Assembly: GCF_002723915.1 (NCBI RefSeq)
Contig: NZ_BEWL01000009.1
Location: 62,001 to 126,000, forward strand
Source: Gluconobacter albidus
GTDB lineage: Bacteria > Pseudomonadota > Alphaproteobacteria > Acetobacterales > Acetobacteraceae
DNA length: 64,000 nucleotides
Direction: 5' to 3'
This document shows, in pieces, positions 23,188 to 49,060 of the stretch. The position numbers were made by a program, and so were the translations under genes. The notes beneath the pieces are model-generated. The model had not been told where the DNA came from and ran no database searches. It worked only from the letters and a program-made list of their open reading frames with translations. Positions within the stretch are counted from its first letter, which is position 1. The number at the start of each line of letters is the position of its first letter.

Positions 23188-26100
23188 CTACACGAGGGCC
23201 GATAAATGCACCGAAACCCTTTTAATTCGATCAGCACGCAAATCGCGCTCTTGTTGTGACATTGTGACCCGATGATTGGTCATCATCACCTCGATTTTCT
23301 GATCCAACTCTTTGAGCCTCGGAGTTGCCGTCTTCTCCAACATGTTCGCCAGCACGCGGTTGGCCACCTCACGTCCGTAATCTCGGCCATCCTGCGCCAT
23401 TTCTTCCTGCATCTTGCCGAGACGGATCAGCTCCTGAACGTGCTTTTCCCGTTCCTCCTGCGACGTGAAGGGCAGATCCATGCCAAGCGCCTTGTAGGGC
23501 TTATTGGACATACCCTTGGCCACATGATTCCACAGATCGTCGCTGGTGATCTCCGTCGTATCACCGAGCGCGCGCCCGTTGCGCACGGCCTCAAACGTCG
23601 CGCCGTCTGAGATCATGGTCCAGGTCGTCCCCTTGGCCCGGCTTTCTGCCACGTAGGACGTAAACCCGGTTGCCGTCGCCACGCCTCGTGGGAGTGCGTT
23701 GATATGCTCGTCTGAGGTGAGGCCCTGGGCGGCATCAATGGTCATGGCATGACCGAAGCCAAGCAGGATCCGGCCGGTCTTGTGGTCCTTCAGGCGACGC
23801 CATTCAACATCCGCCTCCCGTCCGTCCTTCATCCGGACTTTCAGGCCATCCTTGCCGTGCGAGACAACCTCCACGACATCCCCATTGTTGCCAACGGTGG
23901 TCCCTGTTCCTTCGACCGCCCCCCAGGTGCGCCGGAAAAGGCGCAGCCTATCGCCGGCAGCGACCTGAAGCTCATAGGTTTCGCCACGCTGATCGACCGC
24001 ATCCAGTGTCACTTCATCCCGGGAAATCTCGCCACGGTTCTGCAGGATCCTGCGCACAGCGCGGCTGAGGTCGGCCGCGTCCTGGTTGGTCAGGGCCGAC
24101 ATGCTAATTCCGCGCTTTGATCCGGACGCGGCCAGAGCGTCGCGGCGCGTGACATAAAGGTCAGCGATTTTTTGCAACACCTCATCCTGATCGCCACCGA
24201 CGAGACGGATAGTCCCGTCCTCGCGCTTCATGTCGATGGCGCGGCGGACTTCCTCAAAGTGAAAGGCGTTGCGCGGATCGTCCGCATTTTCCTGATCCCG
24301 GTTGGCATAGGCGGCCTTCCCTTTGGGGCGACGCGCCTCCAGTGCATCCGCACTCGGCTTCTCGCCACGAAACAGTCCGGCGATCTCACGATTGCGGGCC
24401 GTTGTCTGGCGGACCGTGGACAGCAGCTCCGGCATATCCTCCTTGGCCAGAACCCTGCGTAGGATCTCGACAGTATCACCGGCCTCAATGGATTGAGCCT
24501 GCTCCCGGTCGCCCAAGGCCTTGATGGTGCAGCCGCTCGCGCGTTGCAGCTCCAGAAGCTGAAGCATCTGGCGCGGTGCGATCTGGCCGACCTCGTCAAT
24601 GACCAGAACCGTGTTCTCGTCCACGGTCTGCTCGCCTTTCTCAAGGCGGCTCAGGAAGGGCATCATAGCGTAGCGCTGATGGATCCCGGCATCGCCAAGC
24701 GCATCCGCCTGACGCCAGGCCGTCGCAAGGCCAATCATCTCACGGCCCTTCTCCGAGAAGCGGGTATCGCGCTTCCAGGCATCCACAAGCGGCTGAAGCA
24801 GCGTTGTCTTACCGGAGCCGGCAACGCCCGTGAGCATCGAAATCTTTCCGGCCTTCCCCAGGGCGTAGATCGCCGCCTTCTGGGACTGGCCGTGTTCGTT
24901 GTCGAAATCGAGGTCGCATCGCGCGATGGCCTCTGTGAGTTGGGCGTCCGAAAGGGAAGCAGTGCGATCCGCCGAGGCCCGAACGGCCTCCCTGGCGAGG
25001 GTCTCCTCGACACGGATCTGGGCCGTGTTGGTGACGCGCATCCGATCATTCTTCACGCACGACACAAGGCTCACCTGTTCGCCCCGAACCTCAAGGCCTT
25101 TGTCCTCGATCAGTTTGACAACCTGGTCGATGTCTTCAATGCCCCCGGGGATGCCCGCTCCGATGAGGCCGCGAGCGGCGTACATCCTCAGCTTGTCATG
25201 ATCGAGAACGGCCGCCGTCTCAAACTCCTTGCCGAGATGCTTGGCCGCAAACGCGTAGGCCTGCTCATGCCGGTCCGCGACAGATAACTCCTTGGCCTCA
25301 GCCATGCCCATGACGCTGTGATGCTCCCAGCCAATCGCAGCGGCGCGTTCGCGCCAGGCCTGAACGTCGTCAGCGGATTCATTCTTCTTCTGCCTGTGCG
25401 CCAGACTGGCGGCCTTGAGCATCTTGTTCTTCAGCTCGGCCGTCATGGTGTTCCAGTCGTGCCCCTCCTTCTCGGCATAGGCCCGAGCGGATCGCGTCAC
25501 CTCGGCCGTGCGGCTGGAAAAAGCGTCACAGGCCTCCTGCGGAACGGCGGAGATAACAGTCGCCTGCTCCTTGGCGTCGTAGGACTGCTCGATCCCTAGT
25601 TTGCGCAGCTCATCCGCCAGTTCCGCCTGGAAGAAGGCTCCGAACTCATGCACGCGAGAGCGCAGGCGCTTGGTGTCCAGCGAGCCCACATGACCGCTCT
25701 CTGTCACAACCACATTGTAGAGCGAGTTGTGGATGTGCATCTGCGGATCGCCCCCGGTCGGGGCCTCACGCAGATAGGTGGTATCGGTCTCGGCATCATG
25801 CAGGGTCAGGGTCGGGCGCGACGTGCGGTGACGGTAGGACGTCCAGGCGACCTCCCCGGCTTCTTCTCCGTCTTCCCCGCCATGCCCACGTCGGGCAAAG
25901 CCAAGCTCGCGGGCCACATACTGCATGGTTGCGTCATTGGCCCGTTGCACAGCGTTCCAGATGGCGGCCCCTTCGGCCTGCGTGGGCGCGAGCTCGGCAG
26001 CCAGCGTGACCGACTTGTGCGGGGCCATGGTCAGATCATAGGCGCTGATCTTTCGCTTTGCCTGAGACCATTGCTCGCCATTGTCAGCGCGCTTGCCCTC

Positions 26101-26364
26101 GAACAGGGCCGCAAGTGTTTCGGTCGTGGGCATGGCGCGCCGATCCACGCCGAGGACGTCCGCCATCTGCTGGCTCATGCCCGGATTGAACGAGGCCCGG
26201 CCATCGCGGCCGAGATAGTAATTCGTGAGGCGCTGACCATCACCGTCCGGCACCTTGCCGGTGTCCGTGCGGAAATCGTGCTCCGGATCCGGTGCCCCTT
26301 CGGTGAAGTATGCGGCCACGAACTTGCCGTTACACTCCGCCGAAATCTTGCGGAAGGTCATCAT
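23188..26364 (-). CDS. traI: MobF-family conjugative relaxase-helicase (TraI/TrwC-like)
   Basis: 1058-residue relaxase that nicks oriT and unwinds the plasmid. The N-terminal TrwC domain has candidate catalytic tyrosines Tyr19 and Tyr49/Tyr50, and the metal-binding histidine motif MHIHN (His210, His212). The helicase part has Walker A at about residues 513-521 (GVAGSGKTT) and Walker B near residue 590 (VLVIDEVGQ). The C-terminus continues the RecD/TraI-type helicase with GHAMTIDAAQGLT. The start codon overlaps the stop of the small accessory gene upstream (ATGA). A MobF relaxase paired with an I-type (Dot/Icm) mating system is noteworthy, because IncI plasmids use a MobP relaxase. Confidence 0.92.
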   Translation of the reverse strand: MMTFRKISAECNGKFVAAYFTEGAPDPEHDFRTDTGKVPDGDGQRLTNYYLGRDGRASFNPGMSQQMADVLGVDRRAMPTTETLAALFEGKRADNGEQWSQAKRKISAYDLTMAPHKSVTLAAELAPTQAEGAAIWNAVQRANDATMQYVARELGFARRGHGGEDGEEAGEVAWTSYRHRTSRPTLTLHDAETDTTYLREAPTGGDPQMHIHNSLYNVVVTESGHVGSLDTKRLRSRVHEFGAFFQAELADELRKLGIEQSYDAKEQATVISAVPQEACDAFSSRTAEVTRSARAYAEKEGHDWNTMTAELKNKMLKAASLAHRQKKNESADDVQAWRERAAAIGWEHHSVMGMAEAKELSVADRHEQAYAFAAKHLGKEFETAAVLDHDKLRMYAARGLIGAGIPGGIEDIDQVVKLIEDKGLEVRGEQVSLVSCVKNDRMRVTNTAQIRVEETLAREAVRASADRTASLSDAQLTEAIARCDLDFDNEHGQSQKAAIYALGKAGKISMLTGVAGSGKTTLLQPLVDAWKRDTRFSEKGREMIGLATAWRQADALGDAGIHQRYAMMPFLSRLEKGEQTVDENTVLVIDEVGQIAPRQMLQLLELQRASGCTIKALGDREQAQSIEAGDTVEILRRVLAKEDMPELLSTVRQTTARNREIAGLFRGEKPSADALEARRPKGKAAYANRDQENADDPRNAFHFEEVRRAIDMKREDGTIRLVGGDQDEVLQKIADLYVTRRDALAASGSKRGISMSALTNQDAADLSRAVRRILQNRGEISRDEVTLDAVDQRGETYELQVAAGDRLRLFRRTWGAVEGTGTTVGNNGDVVEVVSHGKDGLKVRMKDGREADVEWRRLKDHKTGRILLGFGHAMTIDAAQGLTSDEHINALPRGVATATGFTSYVAESRAKGTTWTMISDGATFEAVRNGRALGDTTEITSDDLWNHVAKGMSNKPYKALGMDLPFTSQEEREKHVQELIRLGKMQEEMAQDGRDYGREVANRVLANMLEKTATPRLKELDQKIEVMMTNHRVTMSQQERDLRADRIKRVSVHLSALV

Positions 26365-31801: not shown

Positions 31802-32017
31802 ATGAGTTCAGCCAAAACCCTCTTCGCTCCGACGCCTTTTTCCGCCCTTTCGGATGAAGAGCGCGCGCGCCGTCAGGACGCGGTCGAGTGGACCCTCGCG
31901 GCCCAGAGACGGCAGGGCTACACGCATGATCCCCTTATCGAGGATGCCTGCCAGTCGTTCGTCGCCGGACAGATCGACCTTGCTGAACTGGGGCGGAGAC
32001 TGAATCCCGCCCTCTGA
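31802..32017 (+). CDS. vbhA: VbhA-like Fic antitoxin with altered inhibitory motif
   Basis: 71-residue protein preceding a Fic toxin by seven bases, with the VbhA family layout (SDEERARRQDAVEWTLAAQR and a conserved C-terminal helix). The inhibitory motif of VbhA is Ser-x-x-x-Glu-Gly; here the aligned residues are Ala-Gln-Arg-Arg-Gln-Gly (AAQRRQG), so both Ser and Glu are changed while Gly is kept. In VbhA that Glu blocks the ATP site by pairing with the second Arg of the Fic motif, which is also changed in the partner toxin here. No clear ribosome site precedes the ATG. Confidence 0.82.
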   Translation: MSSAKTLFAPTPFSALSDEERARRQDAVEWTLAAQRRQGYTHDPLIEDACQSFVAGQIDLAELGRRLNPAL

Positions 32018-32024
32018 CGCGTCG

Positions 32025-33500
32025 ATGCCTTCCGCCCACGGCTACACCTACCCGAACGTCTCGGATGATCCTGACCAGACGGACGTCCTCCGAAACCGCC
32101 TCGGCCTGCGCCGCCACTCCGAGCTTCACCCTGAGGAATACCGCCGCACCAGTCACAGGATTCTGGAAATCCGGATGGGTCTGGGGCCATCCGGCCATTT
32201 CGATGCCGACCACCTGAAGGCCATCCATCGGCATATCTTCCAGGACGTCTATGAGTGGGCCGGTCACATGCGCCACGAAAGGCCGGTCGTGGACGGGGCA
32301 CGGGTCGAACCGATCGGCTCCATGCGGAAAGGGTCAACAACCTTTCTGCCCGGCTCCCATATCGACATGGGGCTAAACGAGGCCTTCAAGCCCATTCGCA
32401 ACCCGGATGTGCTGAAGAACTCCACGCCGGAACAGTTCGCGGCCGTCGCCGGAAAGGTTCTGAACGAACTCAATTATGTCCACCCGTTCCGCGAAGGAAA
32501 CGGCAGAACGCAGGAGGCCTTTCTTTCAGAACTCGGCCGTCATTACGGGCATAACGTGGACCTCTCCGTCATCACAAGAGCCCGCATGGTGTCCGCGTCT
32601 ATTGCCGGCACGCAGGATCCGGATCACCCTGCTATGGCGGCCTTGCTGACAGATGCCACCGCTCCCGCCCGTGCGCGTGCCCTAAAGGAGCTGATGCAGG
32701 ACATGGGCTCTGGCCCTGCCGCAAGGCCGCTGGATGACCTCGTCATCCGCACGGCCGCACCTGGGGAAACGGTCTCGGGGATCTTCAAGGCACGGACCAG
32801 CCTCTCCGGTGCGTTCGAAACGCCTGACGGGATCGTGGCGGTGCCTGTCGCAGATCTGCGAAACGCTGTCCGACAAGATGGCGGATACACTGTCACCGTG
32901 CAGTCCGATTTTTTGACGGCCTCTGCTGCTCCAACGCTTCGGCCCGTGCCGCGTCCGGTCATCCCGGCTGTCTTCGGGCCTGCGGAAGAGAAGCGCGAAA
33001 GCGCGCTCCTGGCGCAGGCCAAGGAAGAAGGCCGCAAGGCCGCCGCCTCTCTTCATGCGTTCTGGTCGGCCCCGCCTTCCCTCGTCTGCCGCGACATCGA
33101 GGCCGCGATCCGCCAGGAGGGCGGCGATGCAGCACAGGCCTTCACCGGCATGAAGGCCGGAGGCCGTCATGCGGCGCTCGGGAAAGAGATCGAAAAGGAA
33201 CTGCGCCACAATCCCACCTTCGCGCGCGAGCTGGGCAAGGTGCAGAAGGACATGGCAGCCTATGGCGACAGTCGGGAAAAGGCCTTTGCGTTTGGGGCCG
33301 CTCACGGTCGGGAAACAGCAATCCTGACAGACCTGGCCGGGACGGATCGGGAGATCGCCCGCCATGCCAGCCGGACTCCCACCTCTGAACCGGGCCGCGC
33401 CCTGATTCAGACCCTGACCGGCCAGCCGGCCCTAAACGCCCCGGAAGACCCGACAGGCCGCCCGTCTCTTTCGTCCGCCCGAACACCCGGCCCCGGCTAA
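32025..33500 (+). CDS. fic: Fic-domain toxin (VbhT-like) with modified Fic motif
   Basis: 491-residue protein. The N-terminal Fic domain (about residues 1-210) has the motif HPFREGNGRTQE at residues 153-164. Catalytic His153 and Arg161 are intact, but the last position, normally Arg (HPFxEGNGRxxR), is Glu164. Fic proteins usually transfer AMP from ATP to target proteins such as gyrase; loss of this Arg might change nucleotide binding. The C-terminal 280 residues are helical and basic at the end; I see no clear BID signal. As a paired toxin-antitoxin next to conjugation genes it could stabilise the plasmid or be delivered during mating. Confidence 0.85.
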   Translation: MPSAHGYTYPNVSDDPDQTDVLRNRLGLRRHSELHPEEYRRTSHRILEIRMGLGPSGHFDADHLKAIHRHIFQDVYEWAGHMRHERPVVDGARVEPIGSMRKGSTTFLPGSHIDMGLNEAFKPIRNPDVLKNSTPEQFAAVAGKVLNELNYVHPFREGNGRTQEAFLSELGRHYGHNVDLSVITRARMVSASIAGTQDPDHPAMAALLTDATAPARARALKELMQDMGSGPAARPLDDLVIRTAAPGETVSGIFKARTSLSGAFETPDGIVAVPVADLRNAVRQDGGYTVTVQSDFLTASAAPTLRPVPRPVIPAVFGPAEEKRESALLAQAKEEGRKAAASLHAFWSAPPSLVCRDIEAAIRQEGGDAAQAFTGMKAGGRHAALGKEIEKELRHNPTFARELGKVQKDMAAYGDSREKAFAFGAAHGRETAILTDLAGTDREIARHASRTPTSEPGRALIQTLTGQPALNAPEDPTGRPSLSSARTPGPG

Positions 33501-33508
33501 TCGCCCCC

Positions 33509-34055
33509 TGTTTTCCTAGACCCATCCTGCCCGTGCGGCGAGCACACTGACGGCGACGAGAATGGAACGACGGTGGCGTTTTCCTGAGCCCATCCTACCA
33601 CTGGCCAAGACGGGCGACGGGACAGGCCGTCAAGCCCGGAGCGTCCTGAGCAAGGGGGGCAGGCTTGCGGCTGATGCGGGGTCGCGTGCGGCCCTGCAGC
33701 AGACGCGGGCCTGACACCTGCCGCCGAGGGTCGCGCAGTGGCTTTACGGACTGGCACGGCGACTGTCAGACTGAACGCTGGATGCGAGGCCGCCGTCGTG
33801 GAACGTGCCTCCCCGGACGGTCCGCAGGACTGGCCGGGGAGGTTGAGGAGCCGTCTCACGAACCGATCAGCCACACCAGGACCGTCCGTCATCGGAAAAG
33901 GATGCGGGTGAACCGTTACCCGGAAGGGCCGAGACGCAGGGGCCAGACGCCCGACCAAGGGCGGCTGGACCTTGTGGCTCGGTGGAGCTTGGCGACGCAG
34001 GAGCCTAGCGGAATAGGGTGAACGAACCCGTCAGGGCCGCCCCGATCCTTCTTTC
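33509..34055. repeat. 547-bp direct repeat, copy R1
   Basis: From TGTTTTCCTAGACCCATCCT to GATCCTTCTTTC, almost identical (about ten differences seen by eye) to copies at 35628-36174 and 37617-38162. Contains an internal half-duplication (GTTTTCCT then CCCATCCTGCC-like, about 33510-33535 and 33578-33600), GACTGTCAGACTGAACGC at 33761-33778, a 9-bp stem CCTCCCCGG/CCGGGGAGG (33808-33816, 33834-33842) and a distal stem GGGCGGC/GCCGCCC. Open frames on both strands are a result of high GC; an indel in R3 breaks the longest one. Interpreted as a structured non-coding element, perhaps an Frpo/ssi-type single-strand promoter. Confidence 0.9.
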
Positions 34056-34090
34056 ACTTCTGGCTCGGGAAATTAACTTCGGACAGAGTT

Positions 34091-34125
34091 TTCAGTCGCA
34101 AACTGCTCACGCATGATTCTTTCGA
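34091..34125 (+). promoter_or_regulatory. AGTCGCA-type element before a small membrane protein gene
   Basis: TTCAGTCGCA at 34091-34100, AAC, then GCATGATTCTTTCG at 34110-34123, with spacing identical to the copy at 10523. The ATG of the downstream gene is at 34186. Confidence 0.62.
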
Positions 34126-34185
34126 CGCCACAGAACCGAACTGCGCCCCGAACGGGCCAGTGTTTTGCGTCCGGAGATCGAGACG

Positions 34186-34539
34186 ATGCCTCACTTTCCT
34201 ACCGTATGGCCTTATTTTACAGCCCTTTTCGTGGTTCAGATTCTATTCAAAACTGCCGTCTCGGCGACGCAAGACGGTTCTGAAAGCGGTTATGGCGCAA
34301 CTTCCCTCGTTCACTCACTGACCAGAGCCGTCTTCGACACGGCCATGGGATGGGTGAGACGCAGCACGCGCTATGGTCTCTTTCTCGCTGTCCCTCTGAC
34401 GGCGCTGCTTGGAGCGATGGCGCTTGGAGCGGCGCTAATGGGCCATGAAAAGGAAGGCATGACCTGCCTTGAGGCTGCGTTCATTTCCGGCATGACTGGA
34501 TGGTTTTTGGATCTGCTATCGAACGCGATTGAGGATTAA
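34186..34539 (+). CDS. Small membrane protein of unknown function
   Basis: 117-residue protein with hydrophobic segments at about residues 8-22, 64-85 and 98-112. No family recognised. The ATG at 34186 is used; a TTG at 34165 is in frame but without advantage. It is one of few plus-strand genes in this region and has its own AGTCGCA element. Confidence 0.6.
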   Translation: MPHFPTVWPYFTALFVVQILFKTAVSATQDGSESGYGATSLVHSLTRAVFDTAMGWVRRSTRYGLFLAVPLTALLGAMALGAALMGHEKEGMTCLEAAFISGMTGWFLDLLSNAIED

Positions 34540-34554
34540 TGAAACGGGCACGCT

Positions 34555-34625
34555 CCTGGCGCAGCCCCCCTGTGGGGGGCGAGCATTGGGGGCAAAACAC
34601 TTCGCGCCGACGAGGCGCGTCCGCC
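34555..34625. repeat. 71-bp GC-rich hairpin repeat, copy A
   Basis: CCTGGCGCAGCCCCCCTGTG and onward, with hairpins CCCCCC-TGT-GGGGGG (34565-34579) and CGCGCC-GACGA-GGCGCG. Nearly identical to 36385-36455 (about four differences). Lies between convergent genes here. Confidence 0.85.
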
Positions 34626-34745
34626 TTCCTGGAAAAAACGACGGGGAAATGAGACGGGCGAACGGGAGAAGAGGCCGAGGGCAACGCCGAGGCCGTCAGC
34701 GCGGCCCCGGTGAGTGGCCGGACCTGCTGGCCCGGCCTGTGGGGG

Positions 34746-35414
34746 TTAGAGAACGGCCCCCCATTGTGCGGCACGGACGTTCTCGGTGAGGCTGCGGGCG
34801 TTGTCCTTGACGTAAGGCTTCCAGTCTTCCCCGATCAGTTCGCGGTAGGCGTCACATGCGCCCTGAGCCATGACGGCGAGCGCGTAAGCCTTAGGGGCCT
34901 GCTGTGCAGCGAAACGGACGGCCCGATCTACGCGGTTTTCCCCGCCGTCGATGCCTTGGCGGTCTTCGTCGCGGCTTTCGTTGCTGAAAGAGTTCTGCTC
35001 GTCGCGGGCAATCTGGCGCTTGTTCTCATAGAAGTTGGCGGCACCATAGGCAGAGCGGATCAGGCCGTCCACGATGCGGCCAAGGTGCATTTCCATGGCC
35101 TTGAAATTGCGCTCGCCCCGGAAGTCGGTGACGACAAGCACATCCTCAAGAAGCGTGTACTGGTCGCGGATCATGCTGAGACCGGCCCCCATCAGCTCGT
35201 CATAGTCGCCAGCCTCGAAACCGAAATGCTGAACGATAGCGGCGATCTTGTCATCGTTGGGGGCGAGGCGCATGACGTCTGCCAGCGTGGGAGCGGCAAT
35301 GGCCTTGGTGCGCTCGCGGGCTTCGTTGAAACGGCGGACGGCGGCGGGGCTGGCCTTGTTTGCAGCCTTGCGGTTCTGGGCCTTCGGTGCGATTGTGGTT
35401 GCTGCGTCGGACAT
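34746..35414 (-). CDS. Leading-region protein of unknown function
   Basis: 222-residue soluble protein with a basic Ala-rich N-terminus and a helical middle (KAMEMHLGRIVDGLIRSAYG). No family recognised. ATG at 35414 has AAGGTGAG upstream. The 210-nt region between it and repeat R2 resembles the region between ssb and R3 (shared phrases around ACCGCCAT and TTGRTTACT), suggesting a duplicated promoter module. Three direct copies of GACAAGYRAAAA (35502, 35535, 35587) lie upstream and could be operator sites. Confidence 0.65.
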   Translation of the reverse strand: MSDAATTIAPKAQNRKAANKASPAAVRRFNEARERTKAIAAPTLADVMRLAPNDDKIAAIVQHFGFEAGDYDELMGAGLSMIRDQYTLLEDVLVVTDFRGERNFKAMEMHLGRIVDGLIRSAYGAANFYENKRQIARDEQNSFSNESRDEDRQGIDGGENRVDRAVRFAAQQAPKAYALAVMAQGACDAYRELIGEDWKPYVKDNARSLTENVRAAQWGAVL

Positions 35415-35627
35415 GAAACTCACCTTTTCTAGTCTAGCGAAGTCCCGGCTTGGTGTTCCAGCACTAACCGGGGCGCTTTGTCTTGAGGGCCAATCCCTCT
35501 CGACAAGTAAAAGATAGCCTTTCTGGCCTTTCATGACAAGCGAAAAAGCGCAGAAAACCGCCATAAAACGCGCTTTATTTTCGCATGACAAGTAAAAAGA
35601 TTACTTGGTTACTTTATGAATACCTGT

Positions 35628-36174
35628 TGTTTTCCTAGACCCATCCTGCCCGTGCGGCGAGCACATTGACGGCGACGAGAGTGGAACGACGGTGGCGTTT
35701 TCCTGAGCCCATCCTGCCACCGGCCAAGACGGGCGACGGGACAGGCCGTCAAGCCCGGAGCGTCCTGAGCAAGGGGGGCAGGTTTGCGGCTGATGCGGGG
35801 TCGCGTGCGGCCCTGCAGCAGACGCGGGCCTGACACCTGCCGCCGAGGGTCGCGCAGTGGCTTTACGGACTGGCACGGCGACTGTCAGACTGAACGCTGG
35901 ATGCGAGGCCGCCGTCGTGGAACGTGCCTCCCCGGACGGTCCGCAGGACTGGCCGGGGAGGTTGAGGAGCCGTCTCACGAACCGATCACCCACACCAGGA
36001 CCGTCCGTCATCGGAAAAGAATGCGGGTGAACCGTTACCCGGAAGGGCCGAGACGCAGGGGCCAGACGCCCGATCAAGGGCGGCTGGACCCTGTGGCTCG
36101 GTGGAGCTTGGCGACGCAGGAGCCTAGCGGAATAGGGTGAACGAACCCGTCAGGGCCGCCCCGATCCTTCTTTT
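35628..36174. repeat. 547-bp direct repeat, copy R2
   Basis: Second copy of the element at 33509-34055; identical length, about ten substitutions from R1. Lies upstream, in the minus-strand sense, of the gene at 34746-35414. The internal stem CCTCCCCGG/CCGGGGAGG and the GACTGTCAGACTGAACGC core are conserved. Confidence 0.92.
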
Positions 36175-36181
36175 GCTTTTT

Positions 36182-36358
36182 CTACTGACGGCCCTGATTT
36201 CTGCCTGAAGAGTCCCGCGTGAGGAAGAACGCGGCAAACCCGACGGCAAGCACGAGCAGACCTCCTCTGATGGGATGCAGAAAGCCCTGCCAGATCAGAA
36301 GAAGAATGGCGAGCTGGATACTCAGCGCACCGACGCGGATGACTGTTTGTCGTGACAT
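36182..36358 (-). CDS. 58-residue membrane protein
   Basis: Short frame MSRQTVIRVGALSIQLAILL... ending at TAG 36182. Two hydrophobic stretches (about residues 10-27 and 32-47) joined by a basic turn (HPIRGG). No family recognised. It lies right after repeat R2 in plus coordinates and after the hairpin repeat at 36385-36455 in its own direction. Support comes from its hydrophobic pattern and from being one of a run of small membrane proteins next to ssb. Confidence 0.45.
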   Translation of the reverse strand: MSRQTVIRVGALSIQLAILLLIWQGFLHPIRGGLLVLAVGFAAFFLTRDSSGRNQGRQ

Positions 36359-36384
36359 GGGGCCAGTCTAGTCTTTTTCTCTGT

Positions 36385-36455
36385 CCTGGCGCAGCCCCCC
36401 TGTGGGGGGCGAGCATTGGGGGCAAGACACTTCGCGCCGAGGAGGCGCGCCCGCC
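36385..36455. repeat. 71-bp GC-rich hairpin repeat, copy B
   Basis: Second copy of 34555-34625, with the same two hairpins. Here it lies directly upstream of the 58-residue membrane protein gene in its reading direction. Confidence 0.85.
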
Positions 36456-36477
36456 TGACTGAACCGGGCGAGCGGAC

Positions 36478-36501
36478 AAAAAAAAGCGGCCCGGAGGCCG
36501 C
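36478..36501 (-). terminator. Intrinsic terminator of the ssb operon
   Basis: On the minus strand GCGGCC-TCCG-GGCCGC (36501-36486) followed by eight T residues. It ends the ssb, 92-residue and 41-residue gene run. Confidence 0.9.
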
Positions 36502-36510
36502 CTGTCGGTG

Positions 36511-36636
36511 TCACTGATGGGACGTTCGCAGCTTTGCCAGCCGGGTGGCAATGGGTCCGATCGCAAGCCCCAGACCGATGGTGAAAGCAGCGGCAGGAAG
36601 AAGAATAAACAGGATACTCTGGGTTACGTTATCCAT
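36511..36636 (-). CDS. 41-residue membrane protein
   Basis: Frame MDNVTQSILFILLPAAAFTI... to TGA at 36511. One membrane segment (about residues 8-28) and a basic C-terminus. Its ATG overlaps the stop region of the upstream 92-residue gene (ATGGATAA), as expected for coupled translation, which is the main evidence that it is real. Function unknown. Confidence 0.5.
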   Translation of the reverse strand: MDNVTQSILFILLPAAAFTIGLGLAIGPIATRLAKLRTSHQ

Positions 36637-36907
36637 TGGTTTTCGCCTCCGTCTTGTCCTCAGGATAGGGGATATACGCCAGAAAAGTCAAAGAAATTGC
36701 CTCAAGCGCGGCTCCCAGAAAAAAGCAGGTGACGGCACGCATGGGGGTCAACGGTCCTGTCCCTGAGATGAGCGGGGTCACGATGCCGAGCCCCCACGCG
36801 CTGAGGGCGAATGTCTGAAGGACGCTGGCAATCGCCTTGTAGCGGTCTTCCTTGTGTTTGGAGCGCTGCGGCGGGGGCAGCAGCGCCATGAGGCGGTCTT
36901 TGTTCAT
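36629..36907 (-). CDS. Small two-segment membrane protein
   Basis: 92-residue protein with a basic N-terminal part (RSKHKEDRYKAI) and two hydrophobic segments at about residues 29-48 and 60-80. No family recognised. It follows ssb by 28 nt and overlaps the 41-residue gene, so the three form one operon ended by the terminator at 36478-36501. Confidence 0.65.
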   Translation of the reverse strand: MNKDRLMALLPPPQRSKHKEDRYKAIASVLQTFALSAWGLGIVTPLISGTGPLTPMRAVTCFFLGAALEAISLTFLAYIPYPEDKTEAKTNG

Positions 36908-36935
36908 CTGGCGCTAGGCTCCTTTTTCCCGGCAC

Positions 36936-37430
36936 TCAAAATGGGATTTCGTCATCGAGGTCGTTCCCGCCCGGTGCGTCCCAGCCGCCATTGCGGTTTC
37001 CGTTGCCAGACGATCCCCCGGACCGGCCGCCATTGCTTCCACCAGCAAAGCCGCCCTCGCCTTCATCGCCATTGCCCCGGTTGCTGTCGATCAGCACCAG
37101 CTCACCCCGGAAACGGTCAATAACAACCTCTGTGGTGTAGTGCTCCTGACCGCCCTGATCGGTCCATTTCCGGGTGCGAAGTTCGCCTTCGAGATAGACC
37201 TTGCGGCCTTTGCGGAGAAAGCGCTCGGCCACATCACCCAGACGGTCATTGAAGATGACGACCCGGTGCCATTCGGTGCGCTCACGGCGTTCGCCGCTCT
37301 GGCGGTCATTCCATGTGTCAGACGTGGCGAGCGTAAAGCTCACGACCTTGGACCCGGACTGCGTATGACGGACTTCCGGGTCTTTACCAAGGTTGCCAAC
37401 GAGAATGACTTTGTTAACGGAACCAGCCAT
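36936..37430 (-). CDS. ssb: Single-stranded DNA-binding protein
   Basis: 164-residue SSB. The OB-fold occupies about residues 1-110 (SVNKVILVGNLGKDPEVRHT, then TEWHRVVIFNDRLGDVAERF and KVYLEGELRTRKWTDQGGQE). A Gly/Asn-rich linker and the acidic tip DDEIPF, which docks partner proteins, complete the canonical form. Plasmid SSBs coat the incoming strand and limit SOS induction. ATG at 37430 is chosen (an in-frame upstream ATG lacks a ribosome site). Its position just downstream, in the minus sense, of repeat R3 matches the arrangement of ssb behind single-strand promoters in leading regions. Confidence 0.95.
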   Translation of the reverse strand: MAGSVNKVILVGNLGKDPEVRHTQSGSKVVSFTLATSDTWNDRQSGERRERTEWHRVVIFNDRLGDVAERFLRKGRKVYLEGELRTRKWTDQGGQEHYTTEVVIDRFRGELVLIDSNRGNGDEGEGGFAGGSNGGRSGGSSGNGNRNGGWDAPGGNDLDDEIPF

Positions 37431-37616
37431 GAGAGCCTCCAAGACTTAGGGAACGTATCGACTGGACTTGTTCGGCGTTATTGCCTCTGTCCATGAATAG
37501 ATAATAGGTTTTTACTTGGTATCAGTCAACGAGAAACGGCAGGAAACCGCCATTTCCGAAGAAATAAAACTGAATGTAAAGGCGTTTTATTTGTTGATTA
37601 CTGAAAGGGTATTTGA

Positions 37617-38162
37617 TGTTTTCCTAGACCCATCCTGCCCGTGCGGCGAGCACACTGACGGCGACGAGAGTGGAATGACGGTGGCGTTTTCCTGAGCCCA
37701 TCCTGCCACTGGCCAAGACGGGCGACGGGACAAGCCGTCAAGCCCGGAGCGTCCTGAGCAAGGGGGGCGGGTCTGCGGCTGATGCGGGGTCGCGTGCGGC
37801 CCTGCAGCAGACGCGGGCCTGACACCTGCCGCCGAGGGTCGCGCAGTGGCTTTACGGACTGGCACGGCGACTGTCAGACTGAACGCTGGATGCGAGGCCG
37901 CCGTCGTGGAACGTGCCTCCCCGGCCGGTCCGCAGGACTGGCCGGGGAGGTTGAGGAGCCGTCTCACGAACAGATCCCCAGACCAGGACCGTCCGTCATC
38001 GGAAAAGAACGCGGGTGAACCGTTACCCGGAAGGGCCGAGACGCAGGGGCCAGACGCCCGGTTGAGGGCGGCTGGACACTGTGGCTCGGTCGAACTTGGC
38101 GACGCAGGAGCCTAGTGAGATAGAGTAAACGAACCCTTCAGGGCCGCCCCGATCTTCTTTTC
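37617..38162. repeat. 547-bp direct repeat, copy R3
   Basis: Third copy (546 bp), slightly more divergent. CCTCCCCGG-C-C and GG-CCGGGGAGG now pair over eleven bases. A one-base deletion near 37977 shifts any open frame, so coding is unlikely. Upstream (minus sense) of ssb by about 190 nt. Confidence 0.92.
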
Positions 38163-38171
38163 TTCTGCCCT

Positions 38172-38996
38172 TCAAATCACCCACGGGTCCGTGTCGAAGA
38201 GATGGAAAAGACTATTCTTCCCTTCCCGGCCCGCCTTCCTCGTCTTCCTTCTCAGAACCTTGCGTTCTTGACGGGCCTTGCGCCTTTTCTTCTCGTCAGC
38301 CTTCCAGCCGTCCCGGAGAACCGGGCGCAATTCTTGATACTGGCCTGTAATGCGGCCGTAGGACACGCGGCGGTAGCGCGCGAAGCCTCCGAAACGATCG
38401 ACATTTTTCAATAAAGTGGCTCTCCCCAGCCCGTGATAGAAGATGACGGCAGCGCCGTCCCGTGCATCTGAAGCTGAGGGCAGCCGGAGGAAAAGAGTGG
38501 CGAAGCCATCCGAGGTCTGAACCCATCCGGGCGCTGGCCCTGCCAGTTGCCGCAGCGGCATCAGGTCAAAGTCCGGACAGTTCTCGGCTATGGCTGCCGT
38601 GAGAGGCGGAGACCTGTGCCAGAAGCTGGCGCTACAGCCCGGCCAGTCTTTTGAGGCGTCCGTCGGAAACAGGATTCCGAAGACGGTGATGAGATCAGCC
38701 TCATAGACAAGCTGACCGCCCTGCCATTTGGCAAAGCCCGGATCATCGAAGCAGTCGAAATATTCCATCCCCCGGATACTGACATCGGGGTACTCGTCAG
38801 AAAGCCCATCTCCGTGACGGAGGAAGGACGTGCCGATGCCGTTTTCGAGGGTCATCACCAGCGTGGTGTCGTTCTCCCACGCCATCTGGTCCGGTGCGCA
38901 GGTCCGGTAGGCGCGCTCTTCGGCGATCTGGCGCAGACGGTCCTGGGGGCCGGTGAGCGTGAAGACTGTTGTGACGGCAGTAGCCACGGAAAACAT
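38172..38996 (-). CDS. Leading-region protein of unknown function
   Basis: 274-residue protein with several Trp/Phe/Cys residues in the middle and a strongly basic tail (about residues 235-262: ADEKKRRKARQERKVLRRKT). No family recognised. Either ATG 38996 or GTG 38987 could be the start; the GTG has AAAGGA eight bases upstream. It is preceded by a three-way-junction hairpin at 39047-39095 and followed by repeat R3. Confidence 0.65.
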   Translation of the reverse strand: MFSVATAVTTVFTLTGPQDRLRQIAEERAYRTCAPDQMAWENDTTLVMTLENGIGTSFLRHGDGLSDEYPDVSIRGMEYFDCFDDPGFAKWQGGQLVYEADLITVFGILFPTDASKDWPGCSASFWHRSPPLTAAIAENCPDFDLMPLRQLAGPAPGWVQTSDGFATLFLRLPSASDARDGAAVIFYHGLGRATLLKNVDRFGGFARYRRVSYGRITGQYQELRPVLRDGWKADEKKRRKARQERKVLRRKTRKAGREGKNSLFHLFDTDPWVI

Positions 38997-39046
38997 CCTT
39001 TTCTCTTTTCAGATGCTTCCCCGCGAGGCGCAGACGGCTGGACGGG

Positions 39047-39095
39047 ACAATGGCGCGCCCTCCAGGGCGCGGGCCGCGTGCGGCCGAACCATTGT
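39047..39095. repeat. Perfect three-way-junction inverted repeat
   Basis: Outer stem ACAATGG (39047-39053) / CCATTGT (39089-39095); inside it two hairpins, CGCGCCC-TCCA-GGGCGCG (39054-39071) and GGCCGC-GT-GCGGCC (39072-39085), then GAA. All stems are perfect. Located 50 nt upstream of the gene at 38172-38996 in its reading direction. The rest of 38997-39331 holds no gene that I can see. Confidence 0.75.
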
Positions 39096-39331
39096 GGCGG
39101 CCAGACGGCCTGTGGCGCGTCTTCCCTGTTTTTTCTTTTCTTATTTACAAAGTACGCGTCCGAGGAGTGCACGATTGACGGCTGGTTACGCCTACATCCG
39201 ACACATACGGGGATGACAGCTCACTTTCCACAAAGCAGACATTTGTAATTGAGGCGACTGCAGTGAGGCAGGTTTCGCAAGGCCGACACTGTATATCGTC
39301 GTTCGCTAATAATTCGTGCCCTAAGCCTTAA

Positions 39332-40402
39332 TCAGCCTATATGCACGGCTAAGTTATGCGACCAAGGTCCTACTCCAGCTATTTCAAGCTCGAGATGTAC
39401 CAGTATTCGACGTTCGACGAGATCTCCCAATATCGCGACCCGAAACACACGTTCGACGCACATGAGTGGCGTATAGGATTCATTCGAGATAGGACTAGAA
39501 TAAGGGATCGAAGCCAACCTCACGATATCAAGCTTGAGCAGCTCCTCTAACCAAGGAGAGCCCATGTAGTTTACCCAGTATTCGGACAGACGAGAGCCAA
39601 AGTCTTGAAAGAAAGGGCTCTCGCCGCGGCGCATCGACAAGCACATCATAAGCTTTTGTGGGAGGGCCGCTATGCCACTCACTACGGCGATGTCTCCACC
39701 ATCGAGCATGAGGTCGTTATTGGCTGAAAGAGCGAAGTCACTTGGAAGACTTGCGGCGGGAGTGCGGGGGGCGTTTGGTGCCACCTGGCACTCAACGAGT
39801 ACTAGGGTTCTTTCTCGTCGCACCGAAAGACTCCCTATCGAGCGGCCTTCCCCCAGACTGTTTACCAGCACATATCGATCATACTCCGGTATCGATCTCA
39901 GATTGCCGGCCAAACGGACCAGGTCGGAAAAATCGCCGGTTACGAAATGCTCGATCTCAAAGTGCCATTGGTCGTCTTGAGCGTAGTTTATTTCCCCCAC
40001 CGCCACGATTTCCGGCCCGAATGCAATTAAGTGTTTGATGTTCTGCTCTCCAGCAGCGCCGGTTAGAGCCTGCTTACACCGAGAATAGTGGTCCGCCTTG
40101 TACCGCTGCAAAACCTCTACCGTGTATGTAAAGACGTCGGTATCCACGAGGCGTCCGTGGTTAGCGCAGAGCCATATGCCGTTGTCGATGCTGGCGCGCT
40201 CACCCGGGGTCATTTTGGAATCATAGCGCGGACCGCCTGGTGCTGCGGCGCAGATGTGTGCCGCAGTTCCTATATTGGAGATCGCGGCTGGCGCCTCGTC
40301 ACTCGGCCCCACCGTTGCCTGATTGCAGATCGAACATTTGTAAGCTGCCCTCAACGCGAGAGCGTTCCGAACGGATGCTGAAAAGTTATCACGAGCGGCC
40401 AC
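39332..40402 (-). CDS. HNH nuclease fused to a gp25/baseplate-W-like domain
   Basis: 356-residue protein. Residues about 8-110 are an HNH nuclease of the type common in defence proteins: YKCSICNQ, then NIGTAAHICAAAPGGPRYDS, then SIDNGIWLCANHGRLVD. The C-terminal 140 residues read DGGDIAVVSGIAALPQKLMM, then CLSMRRGESPFFQDFGSRLS, which resembles the phage gp25/GPW baseplate family (invariant Gly-Glu and Asp-x-Gly-Ser). That similarity was seen by eye and is not proven. Composition is AT-richer than the neighbours. A defence or anti-phage role is inferred. Confidence 0.7.
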   Translation of the reverse strand: MAARDNFSASVRNALALRAAYKCSICNQATVGPSDEAPAAISNIGTAAHICAAAPGGPRYDSKMTPGERASIDNGIWLCANHGRLVDTDVFTYTVEVLQRYKADHYSRCKQALTGAAGEQNIKHLIAFGPEIVAVGEINYAQDDQWHFEIEHFVTGDFSDLVRLAGNLRSIPEYDRYVLVNSLGEGRSIGSLSVRRERTLVLVECQVAPNAPRTPAASLPSDFALSANNDLMLDGGDIAVVSGIAALPQKLMMCLSMRRGESPFFQDFGSRLSEYWVNYMGSPWLEELLKLDIVRLASIPYSSPISNESYTPLMCVERVFRVAILGDLVERRILVHLELEIAGVGPWSHNLAVHIG

Positions 40403-44827: not shown

Positions 44828-46876
44828 TTAAAACCCCATGGCATCAAGAGCGGCGGCCGTGTGGCGGAACCGGCCCCCTGTCTCTCTTCTCTTCGATTGC
44901 CCCTGCTGGCGCAGCCAGCCCGTCACGCGATGCTCGGCTGGGATTTCCTCAATGAATCCTGACGGCCTCGCTGAAACACCCTGACGATAGCCGACACTGC
45001 TGATCGTAGCCTGCTGCATGGCCCGGGTCAGCGACACATAGGCCAGACGGCGCTCTTCCTCATAATTGCGCTCGCCCATCCCCGGAAAGACTGTCTCCTC
45101 CCAGGCTGGCAGGAAGACGTGGGGAAACTCCAGACCTTTGGCCCGATGCATGGTCATGAGCTGCACCCGGTCGCGTCCGCGCTCATTCGGTGAGGCCGTG
45201 GCCAGGGCTGCGTGCTCCAGAAGATCCTGAAGCCGGGTAAAGCCCTCGGCCAGCCCGACCAGCTCGGACAGGTTCTGCAAGGCCGTCTCCCCCTCTTCGG
45301 ACGCGGCCTCCCTCCACATCGTGTAGTAGCCCGTCTCTTTCAGGAGCGTATCGAGGCGATCGCAAAGCCGCATGTCCGGGATCTGCCCGATCCGGGAGAC
45401 CGTCTCTCGGAAGGCAAGCAGGCTGTCACGCACCTTGGCGGGAAGCGTTGCCGTGGTGACGGCCGCACACAGGCTGAGGCCGCGATCCTGCGCTTCCTGT
45501 TCGATCTGGCCAAGCGCCTTGGCGCCAAGGCCTCGCCTGGGCACATTGGCCACGCGCCGGAACGCCTCATCGGACTGGCGCCTGTCCGGACAGGCCGCCA
45601 GCATCAGGAAAGCGAGCGCGTCCTTCACCACGGCGCGATGATAGAAGCCGACATCGCCGATGATCTCGTAGGGGATACGCGCCTTGAGCAGCGCTTCTTC
45701 CAGAGAACGGGACAGACGGTTGATCCGGTAGATCATCGCCATGTCATGCCAGGCGACACCTTCTGCCGCACGACGTCCCATCTCGGCTGCAATCGCGTCG
45801 GCCTCATCTGACGCATAATCGTAGGAGAGCACCTCAATCTTCTGACCGTCGCCCTTCTGGGTAAACAGCGTCTTCGGGATCCGGCCCGGGTCTCGCGCGA
45901 TGATGGCGTTGGCAGCCTGGAGGATATGATGCGTCGAGCGGAAGTTCTCTTCGAGCTTGAAAAGTCTGGCCCCGTCAAACTCCCGAACGAAGTTCCGGAT
46001 GAAGCCAATTTTGGCCCCACGCCAGGAATATATTGATTGCGAATCATCGCCCACGGCAAAGAGTTCTCGTGAGTATTCAGACATATAGGTGAGCCACAGC
46101 ATCTGCGCACGGTTCACGTCCTGAAACTCATCGGCCATCACGGATGTGAAGCGCTGCGACCACCTGTCACGATAGGATCGGTCATTCATCAGCGCAAGCG
46201 TTGGCCACATCAGCAGGTCCGAAAAGTCAGCGGCATTCTGCTCGCGCAGGGTCGCCTGATAGATCTGGTAGAGCCGGACCGCAAACTCCCAACCTTCGAC
46301 ATCGACCATCTGACGCGCCGCACGGCGGCGCTCGATCAGCCCGCGCACCCAGGCCGGCGCGGCCTCAGGTGTGACGAGGTTCTCCTTCATATGCCCGATC
46401 CGCTCGCCCATCTTTTTGACCTGCCGGACGTCACACTTCTTGCCTGTGTCCGGTTCGGGCACAGTGTCGGGGTCCATGGCCTTCATGAGACGACGGATCA
46501 GCGCCGTCGCATCGTCCGCATCGCGGATATCGAAGCCGGGGTGTAGCTGGGCAACCTCAGGCTCCGCCCGGAGCTGCCGCGCGCCGAGGCCGTGAAAAGT
46601 GCCAAGCCAGAACGGAGCCTGTCCCTCACCTAAGACGGTCGTGATGCGCTCGCGCATCTCCTGAGCAGCCTTGTTGGTAAAGGTCACGCACAGGATCTGT
46701 GACGGGCGCATCCCATACATCTGGATCCGGCACGCCACACCGGCCGTGAGCGTCTTCGTTTTTCCCGTTCCGGCCCCGGCCAGCACCAGCACGCGGCCAA
46801 GCGCCATGGCGGCCTCACGCTGCACTGGGGTCAGCGGATCCAGTACGGGTGCGAGGGATTGGGGATAAGCGCTCAT
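44828..46876 (-). CDS. UvrD/Rep-family superfamily 1 helicase
   Basis: 682-residue helicase with Walker A at about residues 32-41 (LAGAGTGKTKT), motif II-III (VMADEFQDVN, FAVGDDSQSIYSWRGAKIG), motif V (TMHRAKGLEFPHVFLP) and motif VI (RRLAYVSLTRAMQ). It is close in length to UvrD and PcrA/Rep. It would unwind DNA 3'-5'. The start overlaps the preceding gene (ATGA), in an operon with a Toprim protein. A plasmid copy in the leading region might help single-strand processing. Confidence 0.92.
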   Translation of the reverse strand: MSAYPQSLAPVLDPLTPVQREAAMALGRVLVLAGAGTGKTKTLTAGVACRIQMYGMRPSQILCVTFTNKAAQEMRERITTVLGEGQAPFWLGTFHGLGARQLRAEPEVAQLHPGFDIRDADDATALIRRLMKAMDPDTVPEPDTGKKCDVRQVKKMGERIGHMKENLVTPEAAPAWVRGLIERRRAARQMVDVEGWEFAVRLYQIYQATLREQNAADFSDLLMWPTLALMNDRSYRDRWSQRFTSVMADEFQDVNRAQMLWLTYMSEYSRELFAVGDDSQSIYSWRGAKIGFIRNFVREFDGARLFKLEENFRSTHHILQAANAIIARDPGRIPKTLFTQKGDGQKIEVLSYDYASDEADAIAAEMGRRAAEGVAWHDMAMIYRINRLSRSLEEALLKARIPYEIIGDVGFYHRAVVKDALAFLMLAACPDRRQSDEAFRRVANVPRRGLGAKALGQIEQEAQDRGLSLCAAVTTATLPAKVRDSLLAFRETVSRIGQIPDMRLCDRLDTLLKETGYYTMWREAASEEGETALQNLSELVGLAEGFTRLQDLLEHAALATASPNERGRDRVQLMTMHRAKGLEFPHVFLPAWEETVFPGMGERNYEEERRLAYVSLTRAMQQATISSVGYRQGVSARPSGFIEEIPAEHRVTGWLRQQGQSKRRETGGRFRHTAAALDAMGF

Positions 46877-47544
46877 GCGGGCACCTGCTCAACCGGATAA
46901 ACTTCAGACGCCACCGGATCCTCAACGGCCACGACATTGCTGCTGTCAGTAAAGAGGGTCAGCGGATGATAGAGGTTGAAGCCCTCATGAGGGCCGTCCC
47001 ACCGTCCGGCAATCACCAGGGCCAGTGCGCGGTTCAGGCCGCTGCCCAGCCACACGAGCTGATGCGGGACCGGCATCTCCGGCGCTTCAGGATCCGTGCA
47101 ACCGAGGCGGCGCGCATGATCCATCCAGATCGCAGAGGCCTTTTCATGGCCCAGCATGTTGAAGGTCAGGCCGCTCTTGAGGACCATCCGGTCGATATGC
47201 TGGCGAGCCGTGGATCGGGTGTCGTTATACATCATGACGTCCTCAAAAGCCTTGGGGCAGGCTGACAAAGTGAGCGTTGAGAGTTCAGGTCCGTTCAGAC
47301 GGACGATCGTGGATTTGCGGGTGAAGACGATCAGCTCGCCGTCGCGGTCCCAGGCGTCATTCAGGCGATCACCGCCGATCACGACCCCCTGCACCAGACC
47401 CTCGGGCGTCTGCGCCTCACAGAAGACTTCAGGGGCAGAAGATCCCACCCCGGCACGCTTCCAGACGTTCATGGCCTCTGCGTCCTGCCGCCACAGGATC
47501 AGGGTGATGGCCTGCCAGCTCAGACGGGATTTACTCTGTTTCAT
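46873..47544 (-). CDS. Unknown protein linked to helicase and Toprim genes
   Basis: 223-residue soluble protein, no recognised domain. The N-terminal phrase SWQAITLILWRQDAEAMNVW and the C-terminal NLYHPLTLFTDSSNVVAVED suggest a mixed alpha/beta fold. ATGA overlaps connect it to the Toprim gene upstream and the helicase downstream, so it probably works with them. Confidence 0.7.
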   Translation of the reverse strand: MKQSKSRLSWQAITLILWRQDAEAMNVWKRAGVGSSAPEVFCEAQTPEGLVQGVVIGGDRLNDAWDRDGELIVFTRKSTIVRLNGPELSTLTLSACPKAFEDVMMYNDTRSTARQHIDRMVLKSGLTFNMLGHEKASAIWMDHARRLGCTDPEAPEMPVPHQLVWLGSGLNRALALVIAGRWDGPHEGFNLYHPLTLFTDSSNVVAVEDPVASEVYPVEQVPA

Positions 47545-48521
47545 GCGGCCACGTCCTGACGGGCGCGGCGCTGCAGGACGGCGTTCCAGTCCTTGTCTCG
47601 GGCACTGGGTGAGTACCGCAGGGGTTTCAGCCCGGCCTCACGGATCATGGGCGCATAGATCTCTTCGTAACGGTCGCCCTGAGCATCGCAGTCCACGGCA
47701 ATCATGACGCGGCCGCCTGCCTCAAGGGTGCCAAGAAGCGCACGAAACTCCTCCAGGGCCTCGGGGCTCATGCCGCCACCTGATGAGACATACAGGCTGG
47801 GTTCAAAATTGAACGGGTCCATGGCGGCATAGGACAGCACGTCGATGGCAGACTCACCGATGACCAGACGAACGGGCGTTTCCCCTTTTTCGCCAGTCCT
47901 CATCCGAAAGAGCAGCTTGCCACCGCCGCCCGAGGAGAAGCCGCGATAGTCCGGACCGCGCATTTCCATGCCGGTCAGCTCACCGGCATTGTTGCTATGG
48001 GCGAACCAGGCCGTTCCCTTCATACCTTCACGCAGGAGACCCTGCTCGATGGCCAGACGCACGATGCTCTCCGGCAACGCCCGGTCGCGGGTCAGATAGA
48101 TCCAGGCGGCCGACCCGGGACGGGGAGCCTGACGGTTCTTCCACATATATTTCGGATCACGCGCGGGCTTGCGCTCCTTCGGTTCCGCCACGTACTCGGC
48201 CCCGCTCGGCGCAAGGCCCAGCATTCCACGGAGTTCCACGCGCGCATTGCCAAGGGACATGCCCGGATTGAGGAACCGGACCAGGTCGATGACCGAGCCT
48301 TTGACGATCGAAGAGGAATTGTGCGGATCCCACCAGCCCTTGCCACCGTGCGTCACGATGATGCTCTCGCCCTTCTGCCGACGAAAGCGCATGTGACGGG
48401 CCGAGCTTTCGGAGCGGTCGAACCTGTAACCGGCCTTCTCCAGAACCACGATGCAACTGATCTCGTCACGAAACTTCTGGAGTTCGTCGTTCATCTGCTG
48501 GGGCGAGTTCTGGTAAGCCAT
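47541..48521 (-). CDS. DUF3991/Toprim-domain protein (primase-like)
   Basis: 326-residue protein. The N-terminal region (about residues 15-100; CIVVLEKAGYRF, GGKGWWDPHN, GSVIDLVRFL) fits DUF3991, and the C-terminal half has a Toprim fold with VRLVIGESAIDVLSYAAM, then RVMIAVDCDAQGDRYEEIYA (Glu and Asp-x-Asp metal ligands). Such proteins resemble plasmid and phage primases lacking a polymerase part. ATG at 48521. It heads the operon with the UvrD-like helicase, downstream of the diverged repeat element. Confidence 0.82.
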   Translation of the reverse strand: MAYQNSPQQMNDELQKFRDEISCIVVLEKAGYRFDRSESSARHMRFRRQKGESIIVTHGGKGWWDPHNSSSIVKGSVIDLVRFLNPGMSLGNARVELRGMLGLAPSGAEYVAEPKERKPARDPKYMWKNRQAPRPGSAAWIYLTRDRALPESIVRLAIEQGLLREGMKGTAWFAHSNNAGELTGMEMRGPDYRGFSSGGGGKLLFRMRTGEKGETPVRLVIGESAIDVLSYAAMDPFNFEPSLYVSSGGGMSPEALEEFRALLGTLEAGGRVMIAVDCDAQGDRYEEIYAPMIREAGLKPLRYSPSARDKDWNAVLQRRARQDVAA

Positions 48522-48739
48522 GGCGGAATATCCTCCCGAACGTCCGTTACTTTCGATCTGTGATAAGTATAGTAAATTCCCGCCATAATATCCAATGAAT
48601 ACAACATAATATCGCGGAATATATTTACTTGCTTTGGTGAAATAGTTCTTGCGTCCAGAGCGACAAAAACCGGTTTTTCTTGTTCGTCCTGCGGGGGTTT
48701 CGGGGGCAGCGCAGCCCCCGGTGTTGCCGCTGAAAGGAG

Positions 48740-49060
48740 GTGTGTGGAGACGTTTTTCTCGTCCCGTCCTGCCAGGAACACGACAGTTGCGGGCCGAGGG
48801 TGTCAGGACCGGAAGACTGCGGATCGGCAAGAGCGGGTTGCGGGCAGCGCGGGACACCGTCCTGCGATGAACGCGGCCCTCTTTTGACGAAAGACGCGGT
48901 CTGGAGCCCGAAGGGTTGTCTTGAGACCCTCGGACCGTGACTGTCACACTGATCGCATGACGGCGAGGTCGGAACACAGCTCCGTGCCACCCCGCAAGGG
49001 GTGGTTGAAGCGGCAACGTCTGATGATACGGCATGAACGGATCCTTCAAGAAGTGTCACC
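48740..49060. repeat. Diverged fourth relative of the 547-bp repeat
   Basis: GACTGTCACACTGATCGC at 48939-48956 matches GACTGTCAGACTGAACGC of R1-R3 at 16 of 18 bases. Then, as in the repeats, comes a hairpin CCACCCC-GCAA-GGGGTGG (48987-49004) followed by TTGAAG. In R1-R3 the stem reads CCTCCCC/GGGGAGG and TTGAGG follows, so a base pair has changed on both sides. CGTCCTGCC near 48763 resembles CATCCTGCC of the repeats. It precedes the Toprim-UvrD operon in the minus direction. The rest of 48522-49098 shows no gene. Confidence 0.6.

Follow-up and report, generated by a model that had tools for sequence, protein, structure and literature searches.

A family of structured repeats heading plasmid operons in acetic acid bacteria: candidate single-strand initiation elements

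Single-strand elements of plasmid leading regions have, to our knowledge, been described mainly from the enterobacterial F and I plasmids. A survey published in Nature in 2024 used, according to its available text, BLAST searches with two kinds of query, five known Frpo or single-strand initiation (ssi) sequences and candidates taken from four islands (PMC11541004), a design by which an unrelated family would not be found. As described in PMC9849209 and PMC11541004, Frpo1 and Frpo2 of F and their homologs in R100 and ColIb occur in several copies, all oriented alike, in front of ssb and further leading genes, and a similar layout is found in the DNA studied here, a stretch of 64,000 nucleotides (nt) from Gluconobacter albidus (contig NZ_BEWL01000009.1, positions 62,001 to 126,000), hereafter the window. 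We found no description of the repeats of this window in literature titles and abstract openings, most subscription journals lying outside that coverage.

The original prediction, made from the letters of the window, was that three near-identical direct repeats act as promoters on the incoming single strand. The repeats are real: R1 (33509..34054), R2 (35628..36173) and R3 (37617..38160), all on the plus strand, are 546 nt each and score 328, 341 and 331 bits, respectively, with a covariance model. Over 546 positions, R1 is 98 % and R3 96 % identical to R2; with gaps counted, pairwise identities are 98.4 % (R1/R2), 95.1 % (R2/R3) and 94.1 % (R1/R3). The differences between R1 and R2, initially put at about ten, are nine in 546 positions (98.35 % identity). 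A DNA-level search of the source genome returned no copies beyond these three. A diverged fourth element, R4 (48673..49016, plus strand, modeled domain only), was found by a covariance model built from relatives (127 bits, E 5.6e-40) and also by a sequence profile alone (2.3e-19). The left edge of the element carries a 23-nt motif, GTTTTnCTrrrCC(a)yATCCTGCC, which is repeated ca. 70 nt further in. These copies belong to a real and well-supported structured family with a probable function. The explanation that we favor, to which we give an even chance, is that they are leading-region ssi elements, analogous in function to the ssi/Frpo elements of F and ColIb but unrelated to them.

The conserved single-strand fold of the element is well supported. 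An alignment of the first 345–370 nt of 22 diverse copies yielded a consensus fold of ca. 345 nt with 83 pairs, 34 of which show compensatory changes on both sides. Pairing cells amounted to 95.2 %, versus 83.9 % (standard deviation, sd, 0.5) in shuffles and 38–42 % with slid partners; the covariation score was 0.357 versus 0.156 (sd 0.007) in the control, and the fold score −253.6 versus −152.9 (sd 6.3) in 20 column shuffles, statistics that are biased toward the fold because the structure was derived from the same alignment. Among the stems proposed at the outset, CCTCCCCGG/CCGGGGAGG corresponds to a covarying hairpin (columns 351–385), whereas the pairing of GGGCGGC with GCCGCCC was not confirmed. 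The optimum fold of the plus strand contains 324 G-T and 18 A-C cells, versus 130 G-T and 100 A-C cells for the minus strand, where those A-C cells are G-T on the plus strand. The energy difference between strands was −43, compared with −14.6 in shuffles (sd 6.3, range −32.7 to −1.7), and a milder test with 32 distinct Gluconobacter copies gave 34 G-T and 19 A-C in the pairs common to both folds. This tolerance of G-T versus A-C favors folding of the plus strand, and the minus strand was rejected in this role on the G-T/A-C counts and the strand energy shuffles. The folding expected of the repeats was thus borne out in silico, with the plus strand favored.

The element heads ssb, g222 (with or without g92) or a DUF3991/Toprim-UvrD operon, in a gene order that varies across genera. 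It was seen at one or another of these positions, though not at all three in each genus, in Gluconobacter, Acetobacter, Komagataeibacter and Neokomagataea; the placement ahead of the ssb operon and of g222 was correctly anticipated and extends to a third operon and to several genera. In the window, R2 heads g222 (34746..35414, minus strand), coding for a 222-aa protein of unknown function, and R3 heads ssb (36936..37430, minus strand), coding for a single-stranded DNA-binding protein (SSB; PF00436, 1.1e-35) and followed by the small gene g92 (36629..36907, minus strand), which in Acetobacter and Komagataeibacter follows g222. R4 heads a primase-like DUF3991/Toprim_2 gene (47541..48500, minus strand) with a gene for a UvrD-type helicase (44828..46876) downstream in the same direction. 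The Toprim link was first met in other genera, being observed in Gluconobacter, Acetobacter, Neokomagataea and genome G084, and the model afterwards found R4 before the Toprim gene of the window. From the left edge of the element to the start codon there are 215 nt for g222 and 188 nt for ssb, in line with the 190–215 nt first estimated, and 173 nt for the Toprim gene. In the loci examined (model hits of at least 30 bits, the copies at contig ends being without a readable neighbor), this distance was nearly constant for g222 (211–228 nt) and Toprim (164–205 nt); for ssb it was 186–188 nt in Gluconobacter and 186–201 nt in two Acetobacter, and longer elsewhere, with 656 nt in a third Acetobacter and 667–724 nt in G084 and Komagataeibacter, where the gap leaves room for one further small gene.

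Orientation relative to the relaxase gene was also constant. The MobF (TrwC-type) relaxase gene of the window (23188..26364, minus strand) reads away from the elements, and on all ten contigs that carry both a TrwC relaxase (PF08751) and the element, counted among 12 genomes, the layout was identical: with the element on the plus strand, the relaxase gene lies to its left and points away from it, or the whole arrangement is mirrored. This agrees with the leading-region placement, here of a presumed leading region, proposed originally. MOBF plasmids such as F and R388 share a usual layout of relaxase gene and transferred strand; by analogy with it, and given the constant orientation to mobF, the plus strand of the element would be the transferred strand and, with it, the template of the genes that the elements head.

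The promoters appear to lie outside the repeats. A consensus scan of 33400–38400 found promoter-like sites only outside R1–R3, with sigma-70-like promoters on the minus strand for g222 (35511..35539, TTGTCA-17-TATCTT, 89 nt from R2) and ssb (37501..37529, TTGACT-17-TATTAT, 88 nt from R3). A weaker candidate for the Toprim gene (48566..48595, minus strand, TTGGAT-18-TATACT), 77 nt from R4, falls outside the 17-nt rule. We compared 40 gene-heading copies, a chosen list with near-duplicates left out whose members are still related and represent an estimated ten or so independent lines. The minus-strand pattern TTG-N20-TA was situated 87–89 nt from the element in 32 of them and at 99 nt in three, and the scan, which covered 206 positions, picked it up at no other distance; the five copies without it were all of the Toprim type. 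The promoter flank was also absent from the five R1-type copies tested. Since the sequence of the spacer between promoter and element has diverged, the spacing appears to be selected.

These data bear directly on the proposal that the repeat is itself an Frpo-like promoter, with the folded transferred strand rebuilding −35 and −10 boxes and the leftward mRNA starting inside it. The proposal would fit the anatomy shared with F and ColIb, namely several copies in one orientation heading ssb and leading genes. However, the consensus scan showed no recognizable boxes in R1–R3, and 35 of the 40 gene-heading copies have a regular promoter pattern at a fixed distance outside the repeat. Moreover, the arms that would rebuild a promoter do not covary: a mirror-image hairpin joining the promoter to the repeat edge, evaluated in 21 of 26 flanks (the five with a 16-nt spacer were left out), gave 293 pairs versus 302 (sd 7) in permutations and was rejected. 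A scan for −35/−10 boxes rebuilt in hairpin arms revealed no clear site, which says nothing, because the scan also misses the seven known Frpo sequences. The promoter role originally assigned to the repeat is thus improbable in our judgment, and the element more likely primes duplex formation over the neighboring promoter than being the promoter itself.

According to the favored explanation, the plasmid would enter the recipient single-stranded and each plus-strand copy would fold at once into the conserved branched rod, which would recruit the synthesis machinery, RNA polymerase and/or primase. A primer formed there would grow leftwards, in the direction of the origin of transfer (oriT) and of the 5′ end of the strand being transferred. 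The first double-stranded stretch would then comprise the spacer of ca. 88 nt, the sigma-70 promoter and the operon behind it, so that the ssb, g222 and Toprim-UvrD operons would be switched on first; R1 would serve the plus-strand genes nearest to mobF. We infer the priming step, like all steps beyond the anatomy. Local priming would explain where the element lies and why no promoter is visible inside it, as well as the fixed spacing, the multiple copies and the case of R1. Two of the three operon sets encode proteins that handle single-stranded DNA (SSB; primase-like Toprim and UvrD), and the recipient UvrD is described as taking part in the conversion of single to double strand in Escherichia coli (PMC10085688). 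A stronger and tentative version, possible at best, is that conjugative plasmids of acetic acid bacteria carry fold-forming primer sites at a fixed distance upstream of ordinary promoters, in place of single-strand promoters. Each site would make its promoter and operon double-stranded soon after entry, ahead of the remaining plasmid; local priming would thereby schedule early expression, and the Toprim protein, UvrD and SSB would then speed up conversion of the whole strand.

Several points weigh against reading the repeats as ssi elements, starting with their single-strand activity, which is predicted from sequence, and with the transferred strand, assigned while oriT was not located. No minus-strand gene for R1 to head lies to its left; a plus-strand Fic-domain gene (32025..33500) ends at 33500, directly before this intact element without promoter flank, and the genes of 28.5–33.5 kb lie on the plus strand. 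Other points concern the nature of the folded strand, which we infer to be DNA and not RNA. The share of G-T among standard pairs is 13–14 %, a value usual for RNA (as G-U), versus 7 % on the transferred strand of the seven Frpo sequences, whose two strands fold about equally well (−307 versus −296). Additionally, all 26 promoter-bearing flanks contain TTGNNN followed, after 16–17 nt, by NGTTTT at the element edge (in a search allowing nine positions), and this TTG might form one half of a promoter reading rightward. The hairpin of columns 351–385 has a c(GNA)g apical loop in 14 of the 22 copies and a c(GNNA)g loop in two; by type, there are 12 c(GCA)g and two each of c(GAA)g, c(GACA)g, c(TTCA)g, c(CCC)g and c(AAA)g. 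GNA and GNNA loops are described as exceptionally stable in DNA (PMC4686876). Six of the 22 copies have loops outside these types. The loop of R4 is GCAA, which is stable in RNA as well as in DNA, and the loop types weigh little in choosing between readings.

These features lead to the main rival, namely that the repeats are genes for large structured non-coding RNAs whose transcription on the plus strand diverges from that of the leading operons and which act in the plasmid-carrying cell. A plus-strand fold in which abundant G-U-type pairs alternate with G-C and A-U would suit such an RNA, as would the TTG upstream of the left edge in all 26 promoter-bearing flanks and the fate of flankless R1-type copies, truncated in locus L035 and in the near-identical loci L043 and L067 and interrupted by an insertion sequence (IS) in L068. 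Nevertheless, several R1-type copies without promoter flank are intact, no −10-like box is seen by eye at the element edge and the apical loops are mostly of the DNA type. The consensus scan of 33400–38400, which covered R1–R3, detected nothing promoter-like on the plus strand, nor any terminator-like site on that strand where these three copies end. A known RNA family was also discarded, because an Rfam search of 30000–42000 at E ≤ 1 gave no credible match, only two to miRNA families, far below their gathering scores. The available text of an RNA-seq paper on strain 621H (PMC5756330) mentions 24 intergenic start sites and names no such RNA, which does not settle the matter. Taking both sides together, we consider a structured RNA unlikely.

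The spacings of 99 nt (three copies) and 77 nt (R4), about one helical turn from 88 nt, are a further difficulty for the ssi explanation, because such steps hint at an effect on double-stranded DNA. A plasmid regulator could bind the edge motif GTTTTnCTrrrCC and a related box and loop the DNA, the fold serving another purpose; a box upstream of the −35, GGCGGTTTTCTGC, indeed resembles, by eye, the second motif of the repeat. Such double-stranded regulation would not call for a covarying single-strand fold of 345 nt in which one strand is preferred, and we regard it as highly improbable.

A search of other Acetobacteraceae, suggested with the original prediction, showed the family to be present in 20 species-level genomes of four genera: 13 Gluconobacter, three Acetobacter, two Komagataeibacter and two Neokomagataea. 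These derive from a core-pattern scan that gave 55 stretches, 53 from the species-genome collection and two from a viral scan, of which the sequence profile confirmed 38. The other 15 stretches from the collection, belonging to other groups, and the two viral contigs failed the profile. At the DNA level, matches occurred in 22 of the 147 related genomes searched; 17 are in the Gluconobacter grouping (including the source genome), and five (G013, G047, G053, G093 and G140) have only short matches. A short-model search across the family was patchy, with hits in three of 150 genomes, source genome included; it drew genomes evenly over genera and scored 24 candidates per genome under strict filters, so weak matches could be lost. 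The repeat also matched nine plasmid records, all from Gluconobacter, and the replicon carrying the window is, by these matches, of the Gluconobacter type. In G084, an assembly of five contigs, all the copies found are on a single 118-kb contig. Truncated elements retaining only inner parts (model positions ca. 65–279) were observed near g222-g92 units in Komagataeibacter, G084 and Acetobacter lambici (L132:13399-13593, L096:2481-2675 and L065:7688-7828; also L101, L105, L075 and L123). IS110-family insertions occur at nearly one place in the 3′ part of the element, positions ca. 500–516, in the three plasmids L004, L068 and L070, as if the repeat held an IS110 target. L004 (pDMIN-A, NZ_ON960594.1, 3428 bp), with three annotated genes (an IS110 transposase, a 49-aa open reading frame and g222), can be aligned over its whole length (86 %) to the interval R1(IS110)-R2 in the H24 plasmid, and looks like a circle from recombination between two repeats, either real or an assembly product.

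The repeats are unlikely to code for protein, as originally argued. A 55-aa plus-strand frame, annotated as a gene in several plasmids, stays open through 13 of the 16 Gluconobacter copies that were tested, with a stop in R3 and frameshifts in two others, often lacks a usual start codon, and is stopped in all ten copies tested from R4, other genera or G084; a protein-coding gene was rejected because the frame is not conserved between copies. Minus-strand terminator-like hairpins with a T-rich tail lie inside R1 (33905–33922), R2 (36024–36041) and R3 (38012–38029), and could stop read-through from the preceding gene; the scan that found them yielded 10 terminator-like sites in total, versus 5.6 in shuffles. 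A conserved box, CAGAAAACCGCC, occurs just upstream of the −35 in the left flanks of R2 and R3 and is by eye nearly complementary to GGCGTTTTTCTG, situated in a hairpin loop of the element (motif 2), so that a contact between loop and box in the single strand is possible. A hairpin-rich repeat of 78 nt (94 % identity) is found at 34554–34631 and 36384–36461, beyond the 3′ ends of g222 and ssb-g92, respectively. The presumed leader of the g222 mRNA (35414–35510) contains hairpins kept across genera, making translational control possible. The g222 product had no match in Pfam or PHROGs at E 0.01 and its AlphaFold model is all-helical except for a short hairpin (mean pLDDT 76); relatives were found in 539 plasmid records, most often from Agrobacterium (208) and Rhizobium (119).

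Homology to Frpo was rejected. The sequence profile gave E values of at least 2 on the F, R100 and ColIb stretches, and Smith-Waterman scores against Frpo were reached by 78 of 200 shuffles for R2, 95 for a Komagataeibacter copy and three for the edge of R3. For this lack of sequence relation we call the element Frpo/ssi-like and not a member. Among other systems, large ornate bacterial RNAs such as GOLLD, ROOL and OLE have a fold of similar size and complexity and a mobile-element setting; none of the three had an Rfam match at E ≤ 1 in 30000–42000. The primosome-assembly and primase ssi sites and the single-strand origins of small plasmids are likewise structured single-strand sites that start complementary-strand synthesis, as proposed here; unlike the present repeat, they are shorter and are not known to be tied to operon heads. 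If our explanation is true, the repeats would constitute a second family, independent of the first, that has a well-supported fold and non-pathogenic hosts, and through which one could test whether early expression depends on a single-strand promoter or on local priming alone. They differ from the Frpo/ssi elements of F, R100 and ColIb-P9 in host group, in their branched fold, in the regular promoter pattern outside at fixed spacing and in heading Toprim-UvrD and g222 besides ssb. They resemble them as several similar non-coding copies per plasmid, here in the presumed leading region, that, in one orientation, head operons including ssb, a presumably early gene, and that fold on one strand, here the plus strand, as the long imperfect hairpin of the Frpo/ssi elements is predicted to do on the transferred strand.

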